Shown here: one piece after another, positions 4,466 to 50,637 of the stretch
How positions within the stretch are numbered: the first letter of the stretch is position 1
Layout: every line of letters starts with the position of its first letter
IMG/VR virus record: IMGVR_UViG_3300042527_000115
Span: 1 to 62,090 of that record
DNA from: a virus
Strand: one strand, 5' to 3'
DNA length: 62,090 bases
Made by a program: the position numbers and the translations under genes
Notes under the pieces: generated by a model
Told to the model about the DNA's origin: nothing
What the model saw: only the letters and a program-made list of their open reading frames with translations
Database searches by the model: none

Positions 4466-4625
4466 GCGGCCCGTCTTTAACCAGGAAACTGACGGAAATG
4501 TATTTAAATGGCTGATTGCAACATCAGAAGACTTTAGGAAGATAAAACAGCGAGAGAGATGGAATGAGCTTAAAAAAATCTCAGAGAAGCCTAAAGTCCT
4601 GGACGGAGCAAAAGTGGCGGACTAA
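4461..4625 (+). CDS. Possible small gene with non-canonical start
   Basis: A coherent protein-like frame (RRPVFNQETDGNVFKW, then DFRKIKQRERWNELKK) begins just after the preceding stop codon, but no ATG, GTG or TTG lies at the right place. The coordinates assume an ATT at 4461, with GGAGG at 4445-4449 upstream. A CTG at 4443 or an in-frame ATG at 4308 inside the previous gene are alternatives, and so is a frameshift product of the previous gene. About 54 residues from the ATT. The start is uncertain. Confidence 0.35.
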   Translation: MRRPVFNQETDGNVFKWLIATSEDFRKIKQRERWNELKKISEKPKVLDGAKVAD

Positions 4626-4824
4626 GAGTGGCAAACCTTCTACGCAAGGATCGCAGGCGACAGGGGAAAGATACCTCCCTTCCTCCGCCATCAAAGCGCT
4701 CTCCTCGTCCGAATATGCGGCCACTACCCGGGCTAAAAGGGCTGGACGAGCTGCTGGAAAGCAATTCGTCTCCCAACCTAAATCCATCGCTGCCAAAACC
4801 GCCAGACACAGGAAAGTAACATGA
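4564..4824 (+). CDS. Small basic protein, DUF5872-like
   Basis: 86 residues: MSLKKSQRSLKSWTEQKW, then SGKPSTQ...TGERYLPSSAIKALS, EYAATTRAKRAGRAAGKQF and a C-terminal KSIAAKTARHRK. This succession is characteristic of a small family seen in aquatic phages and large DNA viruses that I associate with DUF5872. The function is not established; high basicity suggests nucleic-acid contact. A frame at 4628-4819 overlaps it in another phase and is less convincing. Confidence 0.7.
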   Translation: MSLKKSQRSLKSWTEQKWRTKSGKPSTQGSQATGERYLPSSAIKALSSSEYAATTRAKRAGRAAGKQFVSQPKSIAAKTARHRKVT

Positions 4825-5579
4825 CGACATCCGGCACGAATACCTTTAATCCAGATCTAAACGAGATGGCTGAGGAAGCTTTTGAGCGGGCCGGCCGTGA
4901 GATGCGCTCAGGCTATGATCTCCGTACAGCCCGTCGAAGTATCAACCTTATGCTGGCCGACTGGGGTAACCGTGGGATCAACCTCTGGACCATCGAGCAG
5001 GGGACCATCAATTTGTTGCAGGGCGTCAATACTTACGACCTGCCCGTTGATACCGTGGATCTCTTGGATCATGTGATCCGAACCGGGCAAAGTAACCCAA
5101 CTACACAGTCCGACCTGACCATTACCCGGATCAGCTCCTCTACATACGCCACAATCCCCAATAAATTGACCCAGGCAAGGCCGATTCAAGTCTGGGTACA
5201 GCGCCTTACCGGACAGACCTATCCAGCCACCAGTGACTATGCTCCGGGTGCCGTAGCCTATCCCAGGATTACGGTATGGCCCACCCCAAATCAGGGTACC
5301 TTGGCTAGCCCGTACTACCAGTTTGTTTATTGGAGACTGCGCCGGATGCAGGATGCCGGAAACGGGATTAACACGTTTGATATCCCCTGGCGGTTTCTTA
5401 ACTGTTTTGTCGCTGGACTTGCGTACTACATTGCCATGAAAATACCGGAAGGGACACCAAGGCTGGAAATGCTTAAGGCGTCCTACGACGAGGCTTGGAA
5501 TTTAGCGGCGGGAGAAGACAGGGAGAAAGCAGCGGACCGGTTCGTGCCGAGACAGTACTTCATAGGATCGGCATCGTGA
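4821..5579 (+). CDS. Head-tail connector / tail accessory factor (P22 gp4-like)
   Basis: 252 residues. The pattern FNPDLNEMAEEAFERAGRE followed by DLRTARRSINLMLADWGNRGINLW and a Thr/Asp-rich beta region is typical of the adaptor that docks under the portal ring in P22-like and many environmental podoviruses. Aromatic-rich strands (YYQFVYWRLRRM) and a helical C terminus (KASYDEAWNLAAGEDREKAA) are visible. It should extend the portal channel and help retain packaged DNA. The assignment to the gp4 type is by pattern; a second adaptor candidate lies at 6326. Confidence 0.65.
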   Translation: MTTSGTNTFNPDLNEMAEEAFERAGREMRSGYDLRTARRSINLMLADWGNRGINLWTIEQGTINLLQGVNTYDLPVDTVDLLDHVIRTGQSNPTTQSDLTITRISSSTYATIPNKLTQARPIQVWVQRLTGQTYPATSDYAPGAVAYPRITVWPTPNQGTLASPYYQFVYWRLRRMQDAGNGINTFDIPWRFLNCFVAGLAYYIAMKIPEGTPRLEMLKASYDEAWNLAAGEDREKAADRFVPRQYFIGSAS

Positions 5580-5580
5580 T

Positions 5581-5931
5581 ATGGGTAACAGGTTCGCTAG
5601 TGGTAAATGGGCAATATCGGAATGCGACATTTGTGGCTTCCGGTACAAACTAAAGGAGTTAGCGCAGCTCGTAATTAAGACAAAGAACGTAAATATCCTG
5701 GCCTGCCCGGAGTGTTGGAACCCGGATCAGCCGCAGCTCCAGCTGGGAATGTACCCGGTTGATGACCCCCAGGCGCTGCGCAATCCCCGTCCAGACTTCA
5801 CCGGTTACCCCCAGAGCCGTTCTTTGACCTTACAGTTGCAGATTGGACCGATAGAGCCTGGAGATACTTTTGCAATAGGCCAGGTTATAGGGTTTGGTGG
5901 TGTAGGACAGGTAACGATCAACATTACGTAG
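5581..5931 (+). CDS. Zinc-ribbon structural protein
   Basis: 116 residues. A four-cysteine zinc site is clear: ECDICGFRY near residue 14 and ACPECWNPDQPQ near residue 41. A conserved MYPVDDPQALRNPRPD segment follows, and then a short beta-rich C terminus. The Zn ribbon is probably structural, holding a small virion or assembly protein together. It sits two bases after the connector gene, so a connector or neck role is plausible. Confidence 0.65.
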   Translation: MGNRFASGKWAISECDICGFRYKLKELAQLVIKTKNVNILACPECWNPDQPQLQLGMYPVDDPQALRNPRPDFTGYPQSRSLTLQLQIGPIEPGDTFAIGQVIGFGGVGQVTINIT

Positions 5932-5940
5932 GAGTAGGAA

Positions 5941-6126
5941 ATGGATAAATCAGCAATGAAAAAGGTCGCCAAGGCCGAAGTAAAGGGCCATGAAAAGCGC
6001 ATGCACGGTAAAGGTTACCGCGCTGGCGGCAAGACCAATCTGGAAATGAAGAAGCTCGGGCGTGGCTTGGCAAAGGTTGCCAACCAGATGTCGCCTGTCC
6101 GTAAAGTCCGCGCAACGGGGATCTAA
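5941..6126 (+). CDS. Small basic protein, 61 residues
   Basis: 61 residues with about one in four Lys or Arg. The sequence MDKSAMKKVAKAEVKGHEKRMH followed by YRAGGKTNLEMKKLGRGLAKV is a repeated type in aquatic phage head operons. Nine bases of spacing contain GGAG (TAGGAGTAGGAA). It shares the AGGK element with the tagged proteins at 3108-4182 but not the ADGIA tail. The function is unknown. Confidence 0.65.
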   Translation: MDKSAMKKVAKAEVKGHEKRMHGKGYRAGGKTNLEMKKLGRGLAKVANQMSPVRKVRATGI

Positions 6127-27686: not shown

Positions 27687-30600
27687 TGGATTACGAAGCC
27701 CTGGCAAGGAAGTATGGCGGTAGTCCTGCGCCATTAGCTGCCGATCCTCTTGAGGATTTGGCTCGCAAATACGGTGGATCACCAACGCCGCTAGCATCCC
27801 CCGCGGCTGCTCCGAAAGAACCGGAAAGCGGTGTTCTACGTCAGATAGCAGACGTTCCGCTAGGTGTAGCCAAAGGCGTTACATCCGGCATTCGGATGTT
27901 GTCCGACATCTTTGGTGCAGATAACCCCGTTAGCCAGGCACTCAAGGGAACCGAAGGATATCTCAATGATCTGATGTCAGCTCAGGCCCGCAACGATCAG
28001 AAAGAGATCGCGCGGATTATGAAAGAGGCTGAGGACAAGGGCGTCTTAGATCAGGTGATAGCTGGTGTCAAAGCCTTTGCCACAGCCCCGGTCGATATGC
28101 TTTCTCAAGCAGCAGGCACAGCTATTCCAACCATTGCTGGTGGCCTAGCAGGAACAATTCTTAAAGTAGCTCCAAAGGTTACCGCTGGATTGACCGGTGT
28201 TGGCATGGGTACCGGCGTGGTCAAGGGAACAATCTATGAAGAGACCAAGCAAGCTCTTAAAGATGCCGGCGTATCTGAAGATCAGGCGGAAGCAAGGGCG
28301 CAGCTAGCTCAATCCTACGGCGGCAAAAATCTAGATCAGATCCTACTAGGATCAGCATTGGGTGGATTGACTGCGGTAGTTGGTGTCGAACCTGCTGCGA
28401 TAGGTGCTTTAACCAAACGTATATTGGCCAAAGAGGCAACTGAGAAAGCTGCTGAGGCAACTGCTAAAGAAGCCTCAAAATCTGTCGCCAGACGGGCTGT
28501 TACTACCGGCGCTACTGAGGCTGGCCCAGAATTTCTACAAGCCTTCCAAGAGCAAGTTGCATCGAACATTGCCCAGCAGCGTGAGGGTCTAGATGTAGAT
28601 GCCATTCGCGGAGCTGTAGCTGCTGGTACTTTGGAAGGATTAGCTGGTGCTGGTCTTGGTGCTGGAGTTGGCGCAATCACTGGGCCACGGGTAGCGGCTG
28701 AGAAGAGGACGCCTGAGGAGATTGCGGCCGAACAGAAACCGGCTGAACCAACCATTACCAAATACTCCACAGTTAATCGCCGCGGTCAGGCTATCACTGT
28801 AGATGTCAGTGAAAACCCAGATGGAACCATTACGGCCAAGAGTAGCGATGGTACTGACTTCGACCTTGATCCTTTCTTGAACCGCGGCATGTCTGTGCCT
28901 GAGGCGGTCAACGCAGCTTTTGCCCGTAAGAATGCCAAGATGGCCACGCCTGTGACCGAAGAGGTTGAGGAAGAGGCTAAGGTTGAAGAGCCTGCAAAAG
29001 TAGTCCCTCCGGTGGCAGCTGAGACAGCTCCTGAAGTAATTAAGGCTGCTGAGCCTGAGACTGAGGCTCCTCCAAAACTAACCGCTCCTGAAGGATTCAA
29101 GCTTAAAGAAGGGCGTAACGAGCAAGTAGTTCTTGCTGCCCGTCAACTTGAAGAAAAACTAGCCGCTGCTAAAACAGAGGAAGAAAAAGCTACAGCTAAA
29201 GCTGAATACGACAGATATGTAAATTATTACACACCGGTTCCAGCTTTAAAGTCAGATGCTATTGAGAGTCCCTTGTCTTCCGAGGAACTTCAAAAGGTTT
29301 TAACTCTTCCAAAGGTTCAAAAAGACCAGGCCAAAATCGATGCACCGATAGAGGATGGCACTCGGGTTGGTTTGCGCATGGATATTCCGGCCCTGAAAGA
29401 GTCTAAAAAGGTTGGTCTTCGGGGTAGCGTTGTATCTGTTCACAAGGGTGCAGACCCTGAAAAGAAAAGCACTGGTGATAACATAAGCTACAAGAGTGCT
29501 GGCCACATTACCGATGCCAAAATGGCTATCCGTAGTGAAGAGGCAGCATTTGATGTAGCAAAGTCTGAAGAGGGTCGAGCTGGGCAAAAGAAGCCGCAGC
29601 AAACCATTGAGGGTAAATGGGTCAATACCCCTCCAGAAGAAATTTATTCTCGGGTACAGCAGTTAATGGAGGATCCTGAGTGGACTCAGGTCAGCCTAGA
29701 TCCTAATCGTCATTCATTCTTTTACGATCGTAAGACTCTACGCCCAGTCGTTGCTGCTGATGAGGTGTACCAGATCGGCCGATTTGTTTTGGCTAAAAAT
29801 GCAAAGTTTGGCAATCGTAATAACTTTTTGTATGCACAAACTAAACCCGGAACTAAAGGCAATCCTAAAGCTGCGGTTCAAGCTCTGATTAATAAGGTCA
29901 AAGAGGGTTGGGTTAACGCACCTAACACAGAGGTTGTCCAATCAATCAGCGAGTTACCACGCGACTTACAGAACCAGATTGAAGAAGACGGTGTCAATCC
30001 CCGCGGTGCGTATCACCCGCCGACCAATACCGTTTACATCATCTCGGACAATATTGCTGGATATCGAGACGCATTTGTTACCCTGACTCACGAGGCGCTC
30101 GGCCACTTTGGTCTGCGGTCTATTCTTGGCAATAGATACAAATCAGTCATGGAAAACTTCTATGAAACCAATTCAGAGGTTAAGAAGTTAGCTGATAAGA
30201 AGATCAAGGAAGGTCTAGACAAAGCTACCGCTGTTGAAGAGGTGCTGGCTGAAGCTATTGAGGATCGCATACCGCAGGACACGACTCTTGGTAAAGCTAT
30301 CCAAATGCTCAAAAACATCATCCGTCAGTTTGCCAAGATGCTTGGCGTCAAGACGTTGAATGATGCAGAAGTACAAAGTCTCCTCGATTCTGCCCGTGAC
30401 TACGTGATTGAGGGTAGATCTAAGGGGGCTTCTCCACCAGCTGAGGGTCGGGCCGTATTCGCTAAAGCCAAGAAGCCTGCCGCCAAGCGTAGCGTTGCTG
30501 GCGAAGCAGCCATGCAAACAGTCAAGGATCTAGGCAGGGAACAAGAGGTTCCGCCTAGCACCATGGAAAAAGCCTTGAGCGTTTTAAGAGACGCCAAGGA

Positions 30601-41668: not shown

Positions 41669-42454
41669 ATGAGAGACCCGTACAGGATTACAGAACCTAC
41701 GGTGATATCGTTCTCGGGAGGAAGAACGTCGGCATACATGCTGCACAGGGTTATGCAATCTAATGACGGACTACCAGAGGACGCAATAGTTTGTTTCGCT
41801 AACACTGGCAAGGAAGAACAAGCAACCTTAGACTTCGTGCATGAGTGTGAAACAAAGTGGAATGCACACATTGTGTGGCTGGAATATCGGTCAGACAAAC
41901 CAAGATTTGAGGTGGTCACATACGAGACAGCTTCTCGGAATGGAGAACCATTTGAGATGCTTATTGAAAAGAAGAACTACCTACCAAACATGGTGGCGAG
42001 GTTCTGCACTCAGGAGCTAAAGGTGCTGGCTATCGATCGGTATTTAAAATCGATTGGATTAGATGAGTACATTACTTTCGTGGGAGTCAGAGCCGATGAG
42101 CCTAGGCGGGTTGCAAAGATCCGTACTCAGGGGGATAAGTTTTGCCCATTAGCTGATGATGGAATAACCGAGAAAATTGTTTGGGATTTCTGGAACAAGA
42201 ATGAGTTTGACCTGAAACTTCCAAAGGTATCAGGAGCTTCAAATTGTGATTTGTGTTTTTTAAAGGGCGCTGGAATTATCGGAGGTTTAATTTCAGAGAA
42301 GCCTGAGAGGGCGGTTTGGTGGGCGAAGATGGAAGAAAAGATTGGTGCCACCTTCAGACCAGACAGACCGTCGTATAAAGAGATGGCAAAGTTTCATGCC
42401 AACCAGGGAAGCTTGTTTGGTGATGAATCTGTTGCTTGCTTTTGTGGGGACTAA
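41669..42454 (+). CDS. PAPS-reductase-like PP-loop protein
   Basis: 261 residues. The PP-loop is SFSGGRTSAYM at residues about 14-24, followed by CFANTGKEEQATLDFV. Cys residues in ARFCTQELK and SNCDLCFLKGAG, with a C-terminal CFCGD, suggest an iron-sulphur cluster. The superfamily includes phosphoadenosine phosphosulphate reductases and DndC-type DNA phosphorothioation proteins. Without DndA, B or D, phosphorothioation is not shown. A thiol-transfer or nucleotide-pyrophosphatase role is possible. Confidence 0.75.
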   Translation: MRDPYRITEPTVISFSGGRTSAYMLHRVMQSNDGLPEDAIVCFANTGKEEQATLDFVHECETKWNAHIVWLEYRSDKPRFEVVTYETASRNGEPFEMLIEKKNYLPNMVARFCTQELKVLAIDRYLKSIGLDEYITFVGVRADEPRRVAKIRTQGDKFCPLADDGITEKIVWDFWNKNEFDLKLPKVSGASNCDLCFLKGAGIIGGLISEKPERAVWWAKMEEKIGATFRPDRPSYKEMAKFHANQGSLFGDESVACFCGD

Positions 42455-45521: not shown

Positions 45522-46341
45522 AGACTTTGCCCGCAGCCACGGGCTGATTATCAACGGCGTCATTCCAGGCAAATGGATCGCCACGCCAACCGAAGATCAC
45601 CCAAGGAAAAGGAACGGACGCTATAAGTACATGGGAGACCATGGCTGGGTTCAGAACTGGGCAACCATGCAGAAGGCTGTGCTGTGGAAATCTGACCGTC
45701 CACAAAGGCTCTCACCGTCTATCTATCAAGCCGTGCGTAACTCTGACAAAGAGCGGGAAGACATGGCCAAGAAAGCCGCGGCTCGGGCTGGCTGGATCTT
45801 GCATAACTCATTTAACGCCCCGCATCCATACATGGACAAGAAGGGATTCCCGGAGGAGCCGACCAAGGTTTGGACAGATGACGACGGCAAGCGCCTGTTA
45901 GTTGTGCCGATGCGGATCAACAACGTGCTGGTTGGCGCTCAACTCATCGATGAAGAGGGGGGTAAGAAGTTCCTGAAGGGACAGCGTTCCAAAGGCGCAT
46001 CCTTCACCATGGACGCAAAAGGACTGCCGATCTTCTGCGAGGGGTACGCCACGGGCCTCAGTATCAGAGCCGTAATGAAGCTCGTAAATATCCGCTATCA
46101 GATCCATGTGTGCTTTAGCGCAGGAAACATACAGGAGATATCTCGGAGCATCCCCGGCGGGATAATCGTCGCTGACAACGATGCAAGCGGAACGGGAGAA
46201 AAGGCCGCGCTTGAAACAGGCAAGCCTTACTGGATCTCCCCCACAACTGGGGAGGATTTCAACGATTTTCATCAGCGCGTTGGTGACTTCAAAGCCAGCC
46301 AATCCCTTAAATCATTAATCATTAAAGCTCAGTCTCAGTAG
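45511..46341 (+). CDS. TOPRIM-domain primase-like protein
   Basis: 276 residues. The TOPRIM core is IFCEGYATGLSIRAV (Glu177) and IIVADNDASGTGEKAA (Asp222, Asp224), which together bind divalent metal. The N-terminal 100 residues (RKRNGRYKYMGDHGWVQNW) resemble the N-terminal part of phage primase-polymerase-like proteins. No zinc finger or AEP domain is present, so catalytic primase activity is not proven. The start at 45511 has GGGGGG seven bases upstream. It converges with a minus-strand gene. Confidence 0.75.
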   Translation: MRFEDFARSHGLIINGVIPGKWIATPTEDHPRKRNGRYKYMGDHGWVQNWATMQKAVLWKSDRPQRLSPSIYQAVRNSDKEREDMAKKAAARAGWILHNSFNAPHPYMDKKGFPEEPTKVWTDDDGKRLLVVPMRINNVLVGAQLIDEEGGKKFLKGQRSKGASFTMDAKGLPIFCEGYATGLSIRAVMKLVNIRYQIHVCFSAGNIQEISRSIPGGIIVADNDASGTGEKAALETGKPYWISPTTGEDFNDFHQRVGDFKASQSLKSLIIKAQSQ

Positions 46342-46590
46342 CCTGATGAACTTAGCTTCCATCTGACGGACCCTTTCCTTGGACAGGCCGTAAAGATTGC
46401 CTGCCTCGGAGAGGGTGCCGCCTTCTGCCCGCTTCTTCAAGATAGCCCAATACTTTTCCCGATTGTCTGGTGCCACCTTCTTAAGCAGCTTATCGAAGTC
46501 TTCCCGCGAGGGAAAGTCCACCAGTCTATACGGCATATTGGGATCACCCGTTTGAATCGGGACTCGCCCGCCTGCATCTTTCAAATTCAC
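46315..46590 (-). CDS. Sigma region 4-like regulator, GTG start
   Basis: 91 residues with GTG start preceded by AAAGGAG at seven bases. The C-terminal half, GGTLSEAGNLYGLSKERVRQMEAKF, then IRLLR, is closely similar to sigma70 region 4.2, whose helix-turn-helix reads the -35 element. No regions 2 or 3 are present, so it is not a full sigma factor; an anti-sigma-like or activator role is possible. Its leader is preceded by about 730 bases of GG-periodic DNA. Confidence 0.65.
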   Translation of the reverse strand: MNLKDAGGRVPIQTGDPNMPYRLVDFPSREDFDKLLKKVAPDNREKYWAILKKRAEGGTLSEAGNLYGLSKERVRQMEAKFIRLLRLSFND

Positions 46591-46604
46591 TTTGTTACTC
46601 CTTT

Positions 46605-47335
46605 ATCCTTAACTGCCTTACCTCACCGAACCGAACCAAACTCTAAATCACCGTGCCTTGACTGCCTTGCCGCACCATTCCGCGCGTAGCCACGCCCCGC
46701 GTAACCAGTCGACACCACGACTGCCATACCGCATCAGACCTCGCCTCGCCTCTGGCTCCGGACCATAGCTGCCTAACCGATCCCGACCAAATCAGACCGT
46801 TGCACACCGCTTCGCAACTAGCCAAGCCCAGCCGCACACAGCCTAGACTGCCCAACCACACCATTCCTTGCCCCACCTTGTCATACCGCGCCGGATCGCA
46901 CACCACCCAGCCTGAACTGCCTTACCAAACCCAACCTGACTAGTCCCAGCCTGATTACGCAAAACTACGCCCTGCCGAACTGCACCTAGACTGCCCAACC
47001 AAACCACTCACTACCGCGCCATGCGCTAGATGTCCCGACCTATCCACGACTGCCAGACCATATCTCGCTGGACCCAACCAAATAACTCGCTACGCAACCA
47101 TGACTGCCATGCTCCACCAAATCTCGCCTGACCTGTCGCTGTGTAACCTCGACAGACCTAGACTGCCTAACCCCACCTTACACCACCTATCGCCGCCGGT
47201 CCTCAACTCTCCATGGCTGCCAAATCTTTCCGCTTGCTACCGTGTCTAAACTATCCAAGCGCCACCAAGACTGCCCTGCCCAACCCAACTCTACGAGACC
47301 AGTCCTAACATATCCAATCCCCGACTGCCGTGCGG
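46605..47335. repeat. Noncoding region with 5-base GG/CC periodicity
   Basis: About 730 bases without a gene. On the plus strand CC recurs at multiples of five bases, and on the minus strand GG does (for example GGTTCGGTTCGGTGAGGTAAGG). The degenerate word GACTGCC recurs at 46660, 46719, 46846, 46989, 47048, 47102, 47161, 47269 and 47323, often 54 or 59 bases apart. Minus-strand GGN3GGN3GG runs are typical of two-tetrad G-quadruplexes. The periodicity is not a multiple of three, so it is not coding. The region is transcribed, if at all, as leader to the sigma-like gene. Confidence 0.75.
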
Positions 47336-47358
47336 GGGGACCGAAGTCCCCCACCAAG

Positions 47359-47838
47359 TTACATCTTTACCGCTTCTTTTACTCGACCTAAGTCTTCTAA
47401 AAGATCATCGATCTGGCCGTTCATACCAAGAGCTTCAGCGTGTAGCTTGGCTCTTTGCAAGTGTGATTCAGCCCGAGCAAACTCCATGACGATCGACTCC
47501 CTTGCTAAATCAGAACTGGTCTTGAGTTTATCGATCGATACGTAGCCCTGCTCCATCGAAGCAGCCTCCGGGTCTCGCACGTAGTAAACCGTGGAAATCT
47601 TTCGGTTTTCCGTAGTGATCACCACCCGAACCGAGGTGATGATCTGACGGGCTTGGAACAGTCGATGCTGATGTGCAGCTAGTCCATCATCCCACTCAAA
47701 CAAACCATGCAGGATCGAATTAGGATCTTTCGCTGCATCTAACACTAGGTCAGGAGTGAGCCGACCGCCGTTTAGATCAGCAATCTCTGCAAGCTTTTCA
47801 GCAACTAATTCTCTGTCTTTGATGATTGCGGTACTCAT
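47359..47838 (-). CDS. Conserved phage protein of minus-strand operon
   Basis: 159 residues. The motif SILHGLFEWDDGLAAHQHRLFQARQII is widespread in phage early regions. The N terminus is helical and the C terminus has a helix-rich part (EFARAESHLQRAKLHAEA). It starts four bases into the end of the previous gene, so the pair is translationally coupled. Function unknown. Confidence 0.6.
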   Translation of the reverse strand: MSTAIIKDRELVAEKLAEIADLNGGRLTPDLVLDAAKDPNSILHGLFEWDDGLAAHQHRLFQARQIITSVRVVITTENRKISTVYYVRDPEAASMEQGYVSIDKLKTSSDLARESIVMEFARAESHLQRAKLHAEALGMNGQIDDLLEDLGRVKEAVKM

Positions 47839-48608
47839 GCTGCCACCTTAAATCCGCGGCGCTTGGTCTCAGCCTCAAACCATGACAACAACTCTTCGGT
47901 CTCGGCATCGAAACACTCAGGCTCGGCCATAGCTTTGACTTGCGCCTTGCGTCCCATGGTCTTGATGATCCGCTGGAAATCTTTGTCGTCCTCACTCACC
48001 AACTTGAAGCAACCATAGTTTCCGGAACCTTTCTCCTGACGCCAATCACCCACACCAGACACCATCCCGCCAGAGGCCAACAGGTTAGCGACCGATTGCT
48101 CTTTGAGCAGAGGCTTTGTGAACTCAATCGTCAGACGGCAGGCCCACTCAGGCATGACTGCCCGGGTGCGAACGTCCGGTGTGCGATTGATATCGGCCGA
48201 TCGGGTAGTGGCCATGAGAACCTGGGGGATACCGTAGATCTCGATCGCCTGACCTTCGACATAGATATGCTTCTTGATCTGTGTACGGGCTACTCCGGGC
48301 ATATCGAGTGCCGCGGTCATCATCGTTCCCTTAAATGCGCTGGGCAGCAGGGAGATCAGAGTATTAGCATCTTCCTCCTTGATGATGTAAGGCGAATCGC
48401 GGAACTCTTGCAGCGGATTGTGCTTCAGGCTGATCGCCTTCTCAGCTGCGTTCTTCTTGCCCTTTGGGAATAGCAACTCTTGCAGGGCTTTTTGGCTCAT
48501 GCGATTGTGGATCAGCGGGGTGGTTCCCAAGACGCAGAACTCCATTTTGCCGCGGGTTTGCTCATAAATAACGATCTCACCTGTAGAGGTGGTTGAAGCT
48601 TTTGCCAT
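47835..48608 (-). CDS. Conserved phage protein with Gly-rich loop
   Basis: 257 residues. Features are LGTTPLIHNRMSQKALQELL near the N terminus, LLPSAFKGTMMTAAL in the middle, and SGGMVSGVGDWRQEKGSGNYG at the C-terminal side. The Gly-rich loop and scattered beta strands recall RAMP-type folds, but no catalytic pattern is clear. It is preceded by a GGTCAA-CA-TTGACC palindrome (48631-48644). Function unknown. Confidence 0.6.
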   Translation of the reverse strand: MAKASTTSTGEIVIYEQTRGKMEFCVLGTTPLIHNRMSQKALQELLFPKGKKNAAEKAISLKHNPLQEFRDSPYIIKEEDANTLISLLPSAFKGTMMTAALDMPGVARTQIKKHIYVEGQAIEIYGIPQVLMATTRSADINRTPDVRTRAVMPEWACRLTIEFTKPLLKEQSVANLLASGGMVSGVGDWRQEKGSGNYGCFKLVSEDDKDFQRIIKTMGRKAQVKAMAEPECFDAETEELLSWFEAETKRRGFKVAA

Positions 48609-50460: not shown

Positions 50461-50529
50461 CCTCACCAACCAGCCTCACCTTCTCAGGCCTCACCCATTC
50501 GGACTCACCCACCAGCCCTCACCTACCAG
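50461..50529. repeat. CCTCACC direct repeats
   Basis: Five copies of CCTCACC (the fourth has one change) start at 50461, 50474, 50489, 50503 and 50517, 13-15 bases apart, with CCAG between several. The last copy with its flank, CCTCACCTACCAG, is identical to 54140-54152 within the terminase small gene, and a near copy is at 50309. The array lies at a promoter and at the edge of a composition island. Confidence 0.55.
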
Positions 50530-50637
50530 CACGAGGGTAGCGACGAGTGCGACCGCCAGCGCGACCGCGACCGCAACGCGAAGCGCGACCGGGTCCGGAT
50601 CGGACCCAGCCGGCCGCGGATCGATATCGGCGCCCAT
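50491..50637 (-). CDS. Tiny membrane protein candidate
   Basis: 48 residues with start MGADIDPRPAGSDP, then ALRVAVAVALAVALVATLVL as a transmembrane segment and a WWVSPNG end. The hydrophobic part is encoded by GCG/GTC repeats. No clear ribosome site; the ATG nearly overlaps the stop codon of the upstream gene. The gene is weakly supported. Confidence 0.35.
   Translation of the reverse strand: MGADIDPRPAGSDPDPVALRVAVAVALAVALVATLVLVGEGWWVSPNG

Follow-up and report, generated by a model that had tools for sequence, protein, structure and literature searches.

A viral genome holds a stretch in which GG recurs every five bases on one strand, just upstream of a small sigma-like gene, and the question is what such a stretch is for. 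It lies at 46605-47335 of what we call the window, the whole 62,090 nucleotides of IMG/VR record IMGVR_UViG_3300042527_000115 that were analysed. The earlier note, made from the letters alone, had offered an origin, a packaging or recombination element, or an element for control at the RNA level. Our answer, in which we have great confidence, is that the phage encodes a VIPR system and has the vrRNA array of that system here, with at least two guides predicted to target tyrosine-integrase genes. The guess at RNA-level control, one of several, agrees with the match to VIPR vrRNAs, and the origin, packaging and recombination elements are not supported.

VIPR (Viral Interference Programmable Repeat) was reported in an April 2026 preprint in which two systems were studied experimentally (PMC13142463). 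As presented there, the parts are a RAMP protein (Vipr), an accessory protein (Vap) and vrRNAs that contain 9-16 YNNGG pentads. In that account the NN pairs engage double-stranded DNA by base-pairing, with one base skipped between pairs, and the systems are used against rival phages; for type II VIPR the preprint gives binding of double-stranded DNA and repression with either strand targeted. The statement in the earlier note that no phage element of this form had been described held until 2026, but no longer does now that vrRNAs have been reported (PMC13142463). In what follows the array, the RAMP fold, the gene association, the conservation of NN over GGY and the integrase matches at skip 1 were computed here, and RNA binding, DNA targeting and repression are taken from the preprint (PMC13142463). 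Coordinates are collected in the table.

Features of the VIPR locus in the window, with the evidence or assignment for each
Feature	Coordinates	Strand	Description
Proposed vrRNA array	46613..47329	-	12 GGYNN-pentad units, with 4-nt GGCA junctions then G(T/C)(C/T)NN; from lag-5 statistics and unit parse
Hairpin GGGGGAC-TTCG-GTCCCCC	47335..47352	-	between accessory-gene stop and array; from sequence
vipr gene	47835..48608	-	257-aa RAMP protein, phrog_4652; predicted vrRNA coat
Accessory gene (vap-like)	47359..47838	-	159 aa, phrog_15946; 4-nt overlap with vipr; between vipr and array
Sigma-70 region-4-like small gene	46315..46590	-	just downstream of array; Pfam Sigma70_r4, E 2.4e-6
Guide unit, 15 NN	46774..46848	-	predicted antisense to [DE]R[NK][SR]VTAAYNHAQY of P4-type tyrosine integrases
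Guide unit, 11 NN	46996..47050	-	predicted antisense to HKTLAMLxRYT of tyrosine integrases
Guide unit, 10 NN	47055..47104	-	tentative: antisense to SGHKTLQM of tyrosine integrases
Guide unit, 14 NN	46922..46991	-	tentative: antisense to KHxxQWxxTLxxY of the P4-type integrase core-binding domain

A chain of pentad units

On the minus strand of 46605-47335 there are 47 GG...GG pairs at lag 5 against 18.5±3.8 in dinucleotide shuffles (z = 7.5; none of 2000 shuffles reaches 47). The harmonics at lags 10, 15 and 20 have 46, 39 and 44 pairs (z = 7.0, 5.3 and 6.5), values that none of the 2000 shuffles equals, the expected number being 18.2-18.5 for lags 5, 10, 15 and 20. A lag-25 harmonic is also present, and lags 2, 3, 6, 7, 8 and 11-13 fall below the shuffle expectation. 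With both strands of the window scanned, this is the sole stretch of its kind. The five-base period seen by eye is thus well founded, but it is not an unbroken run, as the register slips by -1 base at a recurrent GGCAGTCnnGG, at the GGCA|GTC junction. These slips make the stretch a chain of units, each of 5k+4 nucleotides.

Our parse of the minus strand gives 12 units of 9-15 pentads, each of the form GGCA + (GTC NN) + n x (GGY NN), with the first GGCAG at 47329 and the last at 46613. The pentad is best written GG-Y-NN, the third base being T, C or A and never G in the window, and the last two near-random. The consensus in the window is weak (G 0.74, G 0.83, T/C 0.82), weaker than that over 209 strict units (G.91, G.81, C/T.86, NN flat), and the units of relatives have 7-15 pentads, with 9-11 most frequent. 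The only open reading frames over the array are short, overlapping ones of 56 and 87 aa, and the period of five with its slips is retained even in relatives where identity in the flanking genes is 44-84%. The earlier note was right in calling the stretch non-coding and in seeing in it a pattern that is neither random nor driven by codons.

The hairpin may have a role in processing or mark the 5' boundary of the array, and a comparable G/C stem is found at its position in relatives L004 and L007. There is no hairpin tail between units, where only the GGCA-GTC junction is constant, and folding of the array RNA is no better than that of shuffles (z -0.95). No sigma-70 promoters were found in 46250-47500, an Rfam search of the stretch gave nothing relevant, and BLASTN of the locus against GenBank phages gave no match. 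Elsewhere in the window, at 50461-50591, there are two short imperfect tandem repeats with units of 14 and 18 bp, in which GGTGAGG recurs on the minus strand; this region has no lag-5 GG excess and is therefore not a second vrRNA array.

The vipr gene, its neighbours and its relatives

The AlphaFold model of the 257-aa protein (pLDDT 84, pTM 0.80) has only Csm3/Cas7 RAMPs as its top matches in Foldseek (E 4.5e-6), and it aligns with a Csm3-like fold with VIA Z 9.3 over 157 residues at 3.8 A. In the family alignment G185, G187, W189 and R190 of the G-loop, G-x-G-D/E-W-R, are invariant, and G-V-G-D-W-R is near-invariant. The family profile matches PDB 36pp, 'SUSP1 Vipr protein' (E 2.2e-6), and in the SUSP1 genome it finds exactly one ORF, 28474-29061 (E 2.2e-12). 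That ORF is flanked by lag-5 GG arrays, with intergenic counts of 11 and 21, which provides a positive control. On alignment and model, then, the window gene is a single-RRM RAMP with a G-loop, homologous to known Vipr. Given the Vipr fold, the G-loop, the homology to SUSP1 Vipr and the lag-5 arrays in SUSP1, we assign the stretch to the vrRNA arrays of VIPR systems. The features of VIPR found here are a Vipr homologue, an adjoining accessory gene, GGY/NN pentads, 9-15 pentads per unit and, in silico, decoding at skip 1.

In nearly all relatives the accessory gene adjoins vipr, and gp54 of Mycobacterium phage Gorge (L028 4833-6050) is a fusion of the two. On this gene context the 159-aa protein is the predicted accessory partner of Vipr. 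Its model is helical (pLDDT 81, pTM 0.57), and the fold search gave no PDB match at E<=0.001 and only three viral relatives. For the sigma-like gene a relative was found only in a near-identical contig, and it is best regarded as a neighbour, not a conserved part of the VIPR system. Further off in the window, at 41669-42451, a PAPS-reductase-like gene (phrog_424) lies beside ParB-like, helicase and Toprim primase genes.

Relatives were found with the 257-aa protein in IMG/VR, bacterial genomes and GenBank phages, and include Mycobacterium phages Saal and Gorge and Gordonia phages UmaThurman and ODay; identity of Vipr to that of the window drops to about 25-30% among them. A GG-pentad array lies beside vipr in 78 of 89 distinct loci, many of the 11 array-less loci being short contigs or cut near the gene. 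There are 94 arrays on the vipr strand and 1 on the opposite strand; when 177 control loci were scanned in this way, 6 weak clusters came up.

Several of the relatives have features of their own. In Saal and Gorge (L027/L028, about 4507-4899) near-perfect GGCNN arrays occupy a formerly unassigned gap upstream of the vipr homologue. In UmaThurman (L025, NC_031249.1) an annotated CDS, gp40 (5583-5906), overlies the pentads of the array at 5510-5945 and is probably not a real gene. The Vipr homologues of L020 (5277-6695) and L021 (5395-6813) have about 200 extra N-terminal residues, making 472 aa in total, and L067, L083, L100, L104 and L105 have two or three separate GG-pentad arrays at or near one vipr gene. 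In L019 (7267-8426) the gene before the long array seems to have its 3' end (CGTCCATCCGGAAGCGAGAGCTT) repeated within the array, as if a duplication had taken in both the array and the end of the gene.

Guides and their predicted targets

Comparison of homologous units gives an indication of which bases matter. Between the window unit 46996-47050 and its counterpart in L004 there are changes at 1/22 NN and 10/33 GGY positions, between L004 and L005 at 2/20 and 12/30, between L005 and L006 at 0/16 and 5/24, and between window unit 46774-46848 and L007 at 3/20 and 14/30; the pairs were picked by NN similarity, so the contrast proves that such pairs exist and not their overall frequency. NN being kept while GGY changes is the opposite of what is expected for free loops or spacers. 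Both L003 and L004 retain the unit 46996-47050. Although L003 shares 95-98% identity with the window around the array, entire units bounded by GGCAGTC junctions have been substituted, and this looks like guide turnover via recombination at the junctions.

We decoded the guides on the antisense strand with a 1-nt skip, the two NN letters being read as the first and second positions of a codon. Decoded in this way units of L004 and L005 spell MKTRxEHRVPL and MKMKREHIVPL, both motifs of tyrosine integrases, and two window units also spell such motifs; the decoded peptides are too short for Pfam scoring. For the 15-NN guide the first 8 NN, used as a pattern in IMG/VR, gave 58 stretches, 50 of them integrase C-termini of the ERNxVRAAYNHAQYLPERR type, whereas four other exact 8-NN scans (the middle part of this guide, 46667-46721, 46996-47050 and 47055-47104) gave a chance-like 7, 8, 16 and 8 matches, among which no integrase motif was seen. 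At full length this guide matches its best integrase at 26/30 at skip 1 (shuffled 18.9±0.8) and its best IMG/VR stretch at 27/30, but integrases L167-L224 were themselves selected with its first 8 NN, so that here the test carries weight only in the other 14 positions (up to 11 of them matching) or in the set that was not so selected; on integrases not selected with the guide it matches at 23/30, against 18.5±0.9 for shuffled NN order.

The 11-NN guide matches HKTLAMLKRY of the L282 integrase, from an independent integrase set, at 19/22 (shuffled 15.3±0.6, p 0.005), and does so only at skip 1. For the two tentative guides the best match of the 10-NN one is TGHKTLQ of L280 (16/20, p 0.08), with SGHKTLQMLKRYTHL found in the L281 integrase, and the 14-NN one matches 19/28 at NTKHRAQWRSTLDTY (p 0.13). 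These p values rest on 200-400 shuffles each, with no correction for how many guides were tried; the main control lies in comparing one skip rule with another. Over all 183 guides and 21 unselected integrase genes the mean z at skip 1 is +0.26 (se 0.07), and about 0 at skips 0, 2 and 3; with 75 integrases, some of which had been selected by means of one guide, it is +0.375 (se 0.10) at skip 1. Against these 75, 7/183 guides reach p<=0.01 at skip 1 and 0/183 at each of skips 0, 2 and 3.

Most window guides are without an assigned target, and no full-length perfect target was found, the best being 27/30 and 19/22. When up to 3 mismatches were allowed, the 15-NN guide still had no match among 399 genomes from the order presumed to include the host, that of the one bacterial relative; the host is probably a freshwater betaproteobacterium. 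There was no excess of guide targets at any skip inside the fetched vipr loci, and the window guides match the window no better than shuffles do, no integrase having been found in it. From the decoded motifs we suggest that at least two of the window guides, and perhaps four, are aimed at conserved tyrosine-integrase motifs.

The array would be transcribed leftward, with or after vipr and the accessory gene. Vipr is expected to coat the RNA, one subunit per GGYNN pentad, gripping the GGY bases, and with these held the NN pairs would face the DNA. One guide would correspond to one unit of 9-15 pentads, as delimited by the GGCA junctions, its NN pairs base-pairing with the target and every third target base being skipped. 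The skipped base would be the codon wobble position, and we propose that for this reason a single guide could suit many integrases. It is likely that the integrase would be repressed, and with it the lysogeny or excision of temperate phages or satellites that compete within that host, to the benefit of the phage. It is quite possible, and we suggest it tentatively, that this is a clade with its own array design of abutting guides with a 4-nt GGCR slip, and with a conserved, broad-range arsenal against tyrosine integrases, in which one guide reads the same motif in many integrases by wobble skipping and cassettes turn over at the junctions.

The integrase matches are mostly antisense to the gene, nearly all of those with recognisable motifs being so, with the skipped base on wobble positions. 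Pairing with mRNA therefore stays a rival for this clade, the array being a VIPR array in which the guides act on integrase mRNA in antisense-RNA style and not on DNA, and it is in keeping with this that the nearest folds are those of RNA-targeting type III Csm3. We think it unlikely, however, as type II VIPR shows binding of double-stranded DNA and repression from both strands (PMC13142463), and one guide of the clade, from L055, fits an integrase in sense orientation and so could not pair with the mRNA.

It is less probable again that the integrase matches are due to chance, with the guides aimed at other, unsampled elements. The lack of a perfect target and the fact that only some guides match would fit this. 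However, other skips and shuffled NN order give no such excess, several guides fall on textbook integrase motifs in the correct codon phase, and one 8-NN core leads to integrases in 50/58 matches where the four other patterns gave 7-16 matches and no integrase motif.

We see very little likelihood that the array lacks a guide function and instead binds an RNA-binding protein in ring or filament form, as with a TRAP-like regulator or a decoy titrating a host protein, with Vipr merely coating it. RAMP proteins do coat RNA, and TRAP likewise reads a dinucleotide every five nucleotides, but NN should then be free, yet in shared units it is the conserved part, and a skip of 1 is the only one at which it spells integrase motifs; the nearest solved folds to Vipr are the backbones of guide-bearing effectors.

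The earlier note saw in the GGN3 repeats the pattern of two-tetrad quadruplexes. This reading, in which they would fold in DNA or RNA and signal an origin, packaging or recombination or else block transcription, can be set aside with hardly any reservation, since although GGN3GGN3GGN3GG does occur, one strand is G-rich and the maximum 25-nt G4Hunter score is 1.48, there are 0 canonical G3 motifs and the mean G4Hunter score is 0.63, exact 3-nt loops with GGCA slips every 9-15 pentads are not needed for quadruplexes, homologous units retain NN, the putative loops, while GG changes, and in 78/89 loci the array goes with a RAMP gene and keeps to a single strand.

Reading the stretch as a vrRNA array extends VIPR independently to a divergent clade, of probable betaproteobacterial phages and well-studied Mycobacterium and Gordonia phages, and lends the 1-nt-skip code separate support in silico. 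If the proposed targets are right, these phages fight rival temperate elements at the integration step, with guides broad enough for whole integrase families. The members from phages of Mycobacterium smegmatis and Gordonia make the clade testable with laboratory phages.

Comparison with known systems

With regard to TRAP (trp RNA-binding attenuation protein), its target RNAs resemble the array in having a dinucleotide, AG, read about every five nucleotides. They differ in that here the NN are informative and there is no ring-sized unit, and no TRAP homologue was found. A TRAP-like ring had been suggested by the period of five, and was dropped after the RAMP fold and the NN conservation were seen.

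The Csm complex of type III CRISPR-Cas shares the Csm3/Cas7-like fold and a guide RNA with periodic contacts. In contrast to it there are here no cas1/cas2 and no repeat-spacer array, the period is 5 nt and not 6 nt, and the code is a gapped 2-of-5 one. CRISPR-Cas was rejected, as the tandem-repeat scan of the window gave no direct-repeat array and the RAMP gene stands alone with its accessory gene.

The closest likeness is to the type II VIPR of Escherichia phage SUSP1 and of a Pseudomonas fulva prophage, with a G-loop RAMP homologous to SUSP1 Vipr, a two-gene locus and encoding by a phage. As in type II VIPR there are intergenic GGY/NN pentads (9-15 per guide here, 9-16 as published), a 1-nt skip and, as predicted here, targets in rival mobile elements. 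The vipr neighbour in SUSP1 is not homologous to the accessory protein here (phrog_15946), and the predicted targets here are integrase genes, the word 'integrase' being absent from the main text of the preprint (PMC13142463). SUSP1 has separate vrRNAs with a 3' hairpin tail, whereas here the guides abut, with a 4-nt GGCR slip and no visible structured tail, and the structured 3' tail described for the SUSP1 clade may be type-specific. The junction-slip array and the integrase target class are thus new, in that neither is described in the main text of the preprint (PMC13142463). However, the preprint mentions 'staggered arrays with overlapping vrRNAs' for other VIPR types (fig. S18; PMC13142463), and the GGCR-slip array may be this 'staggered' form.
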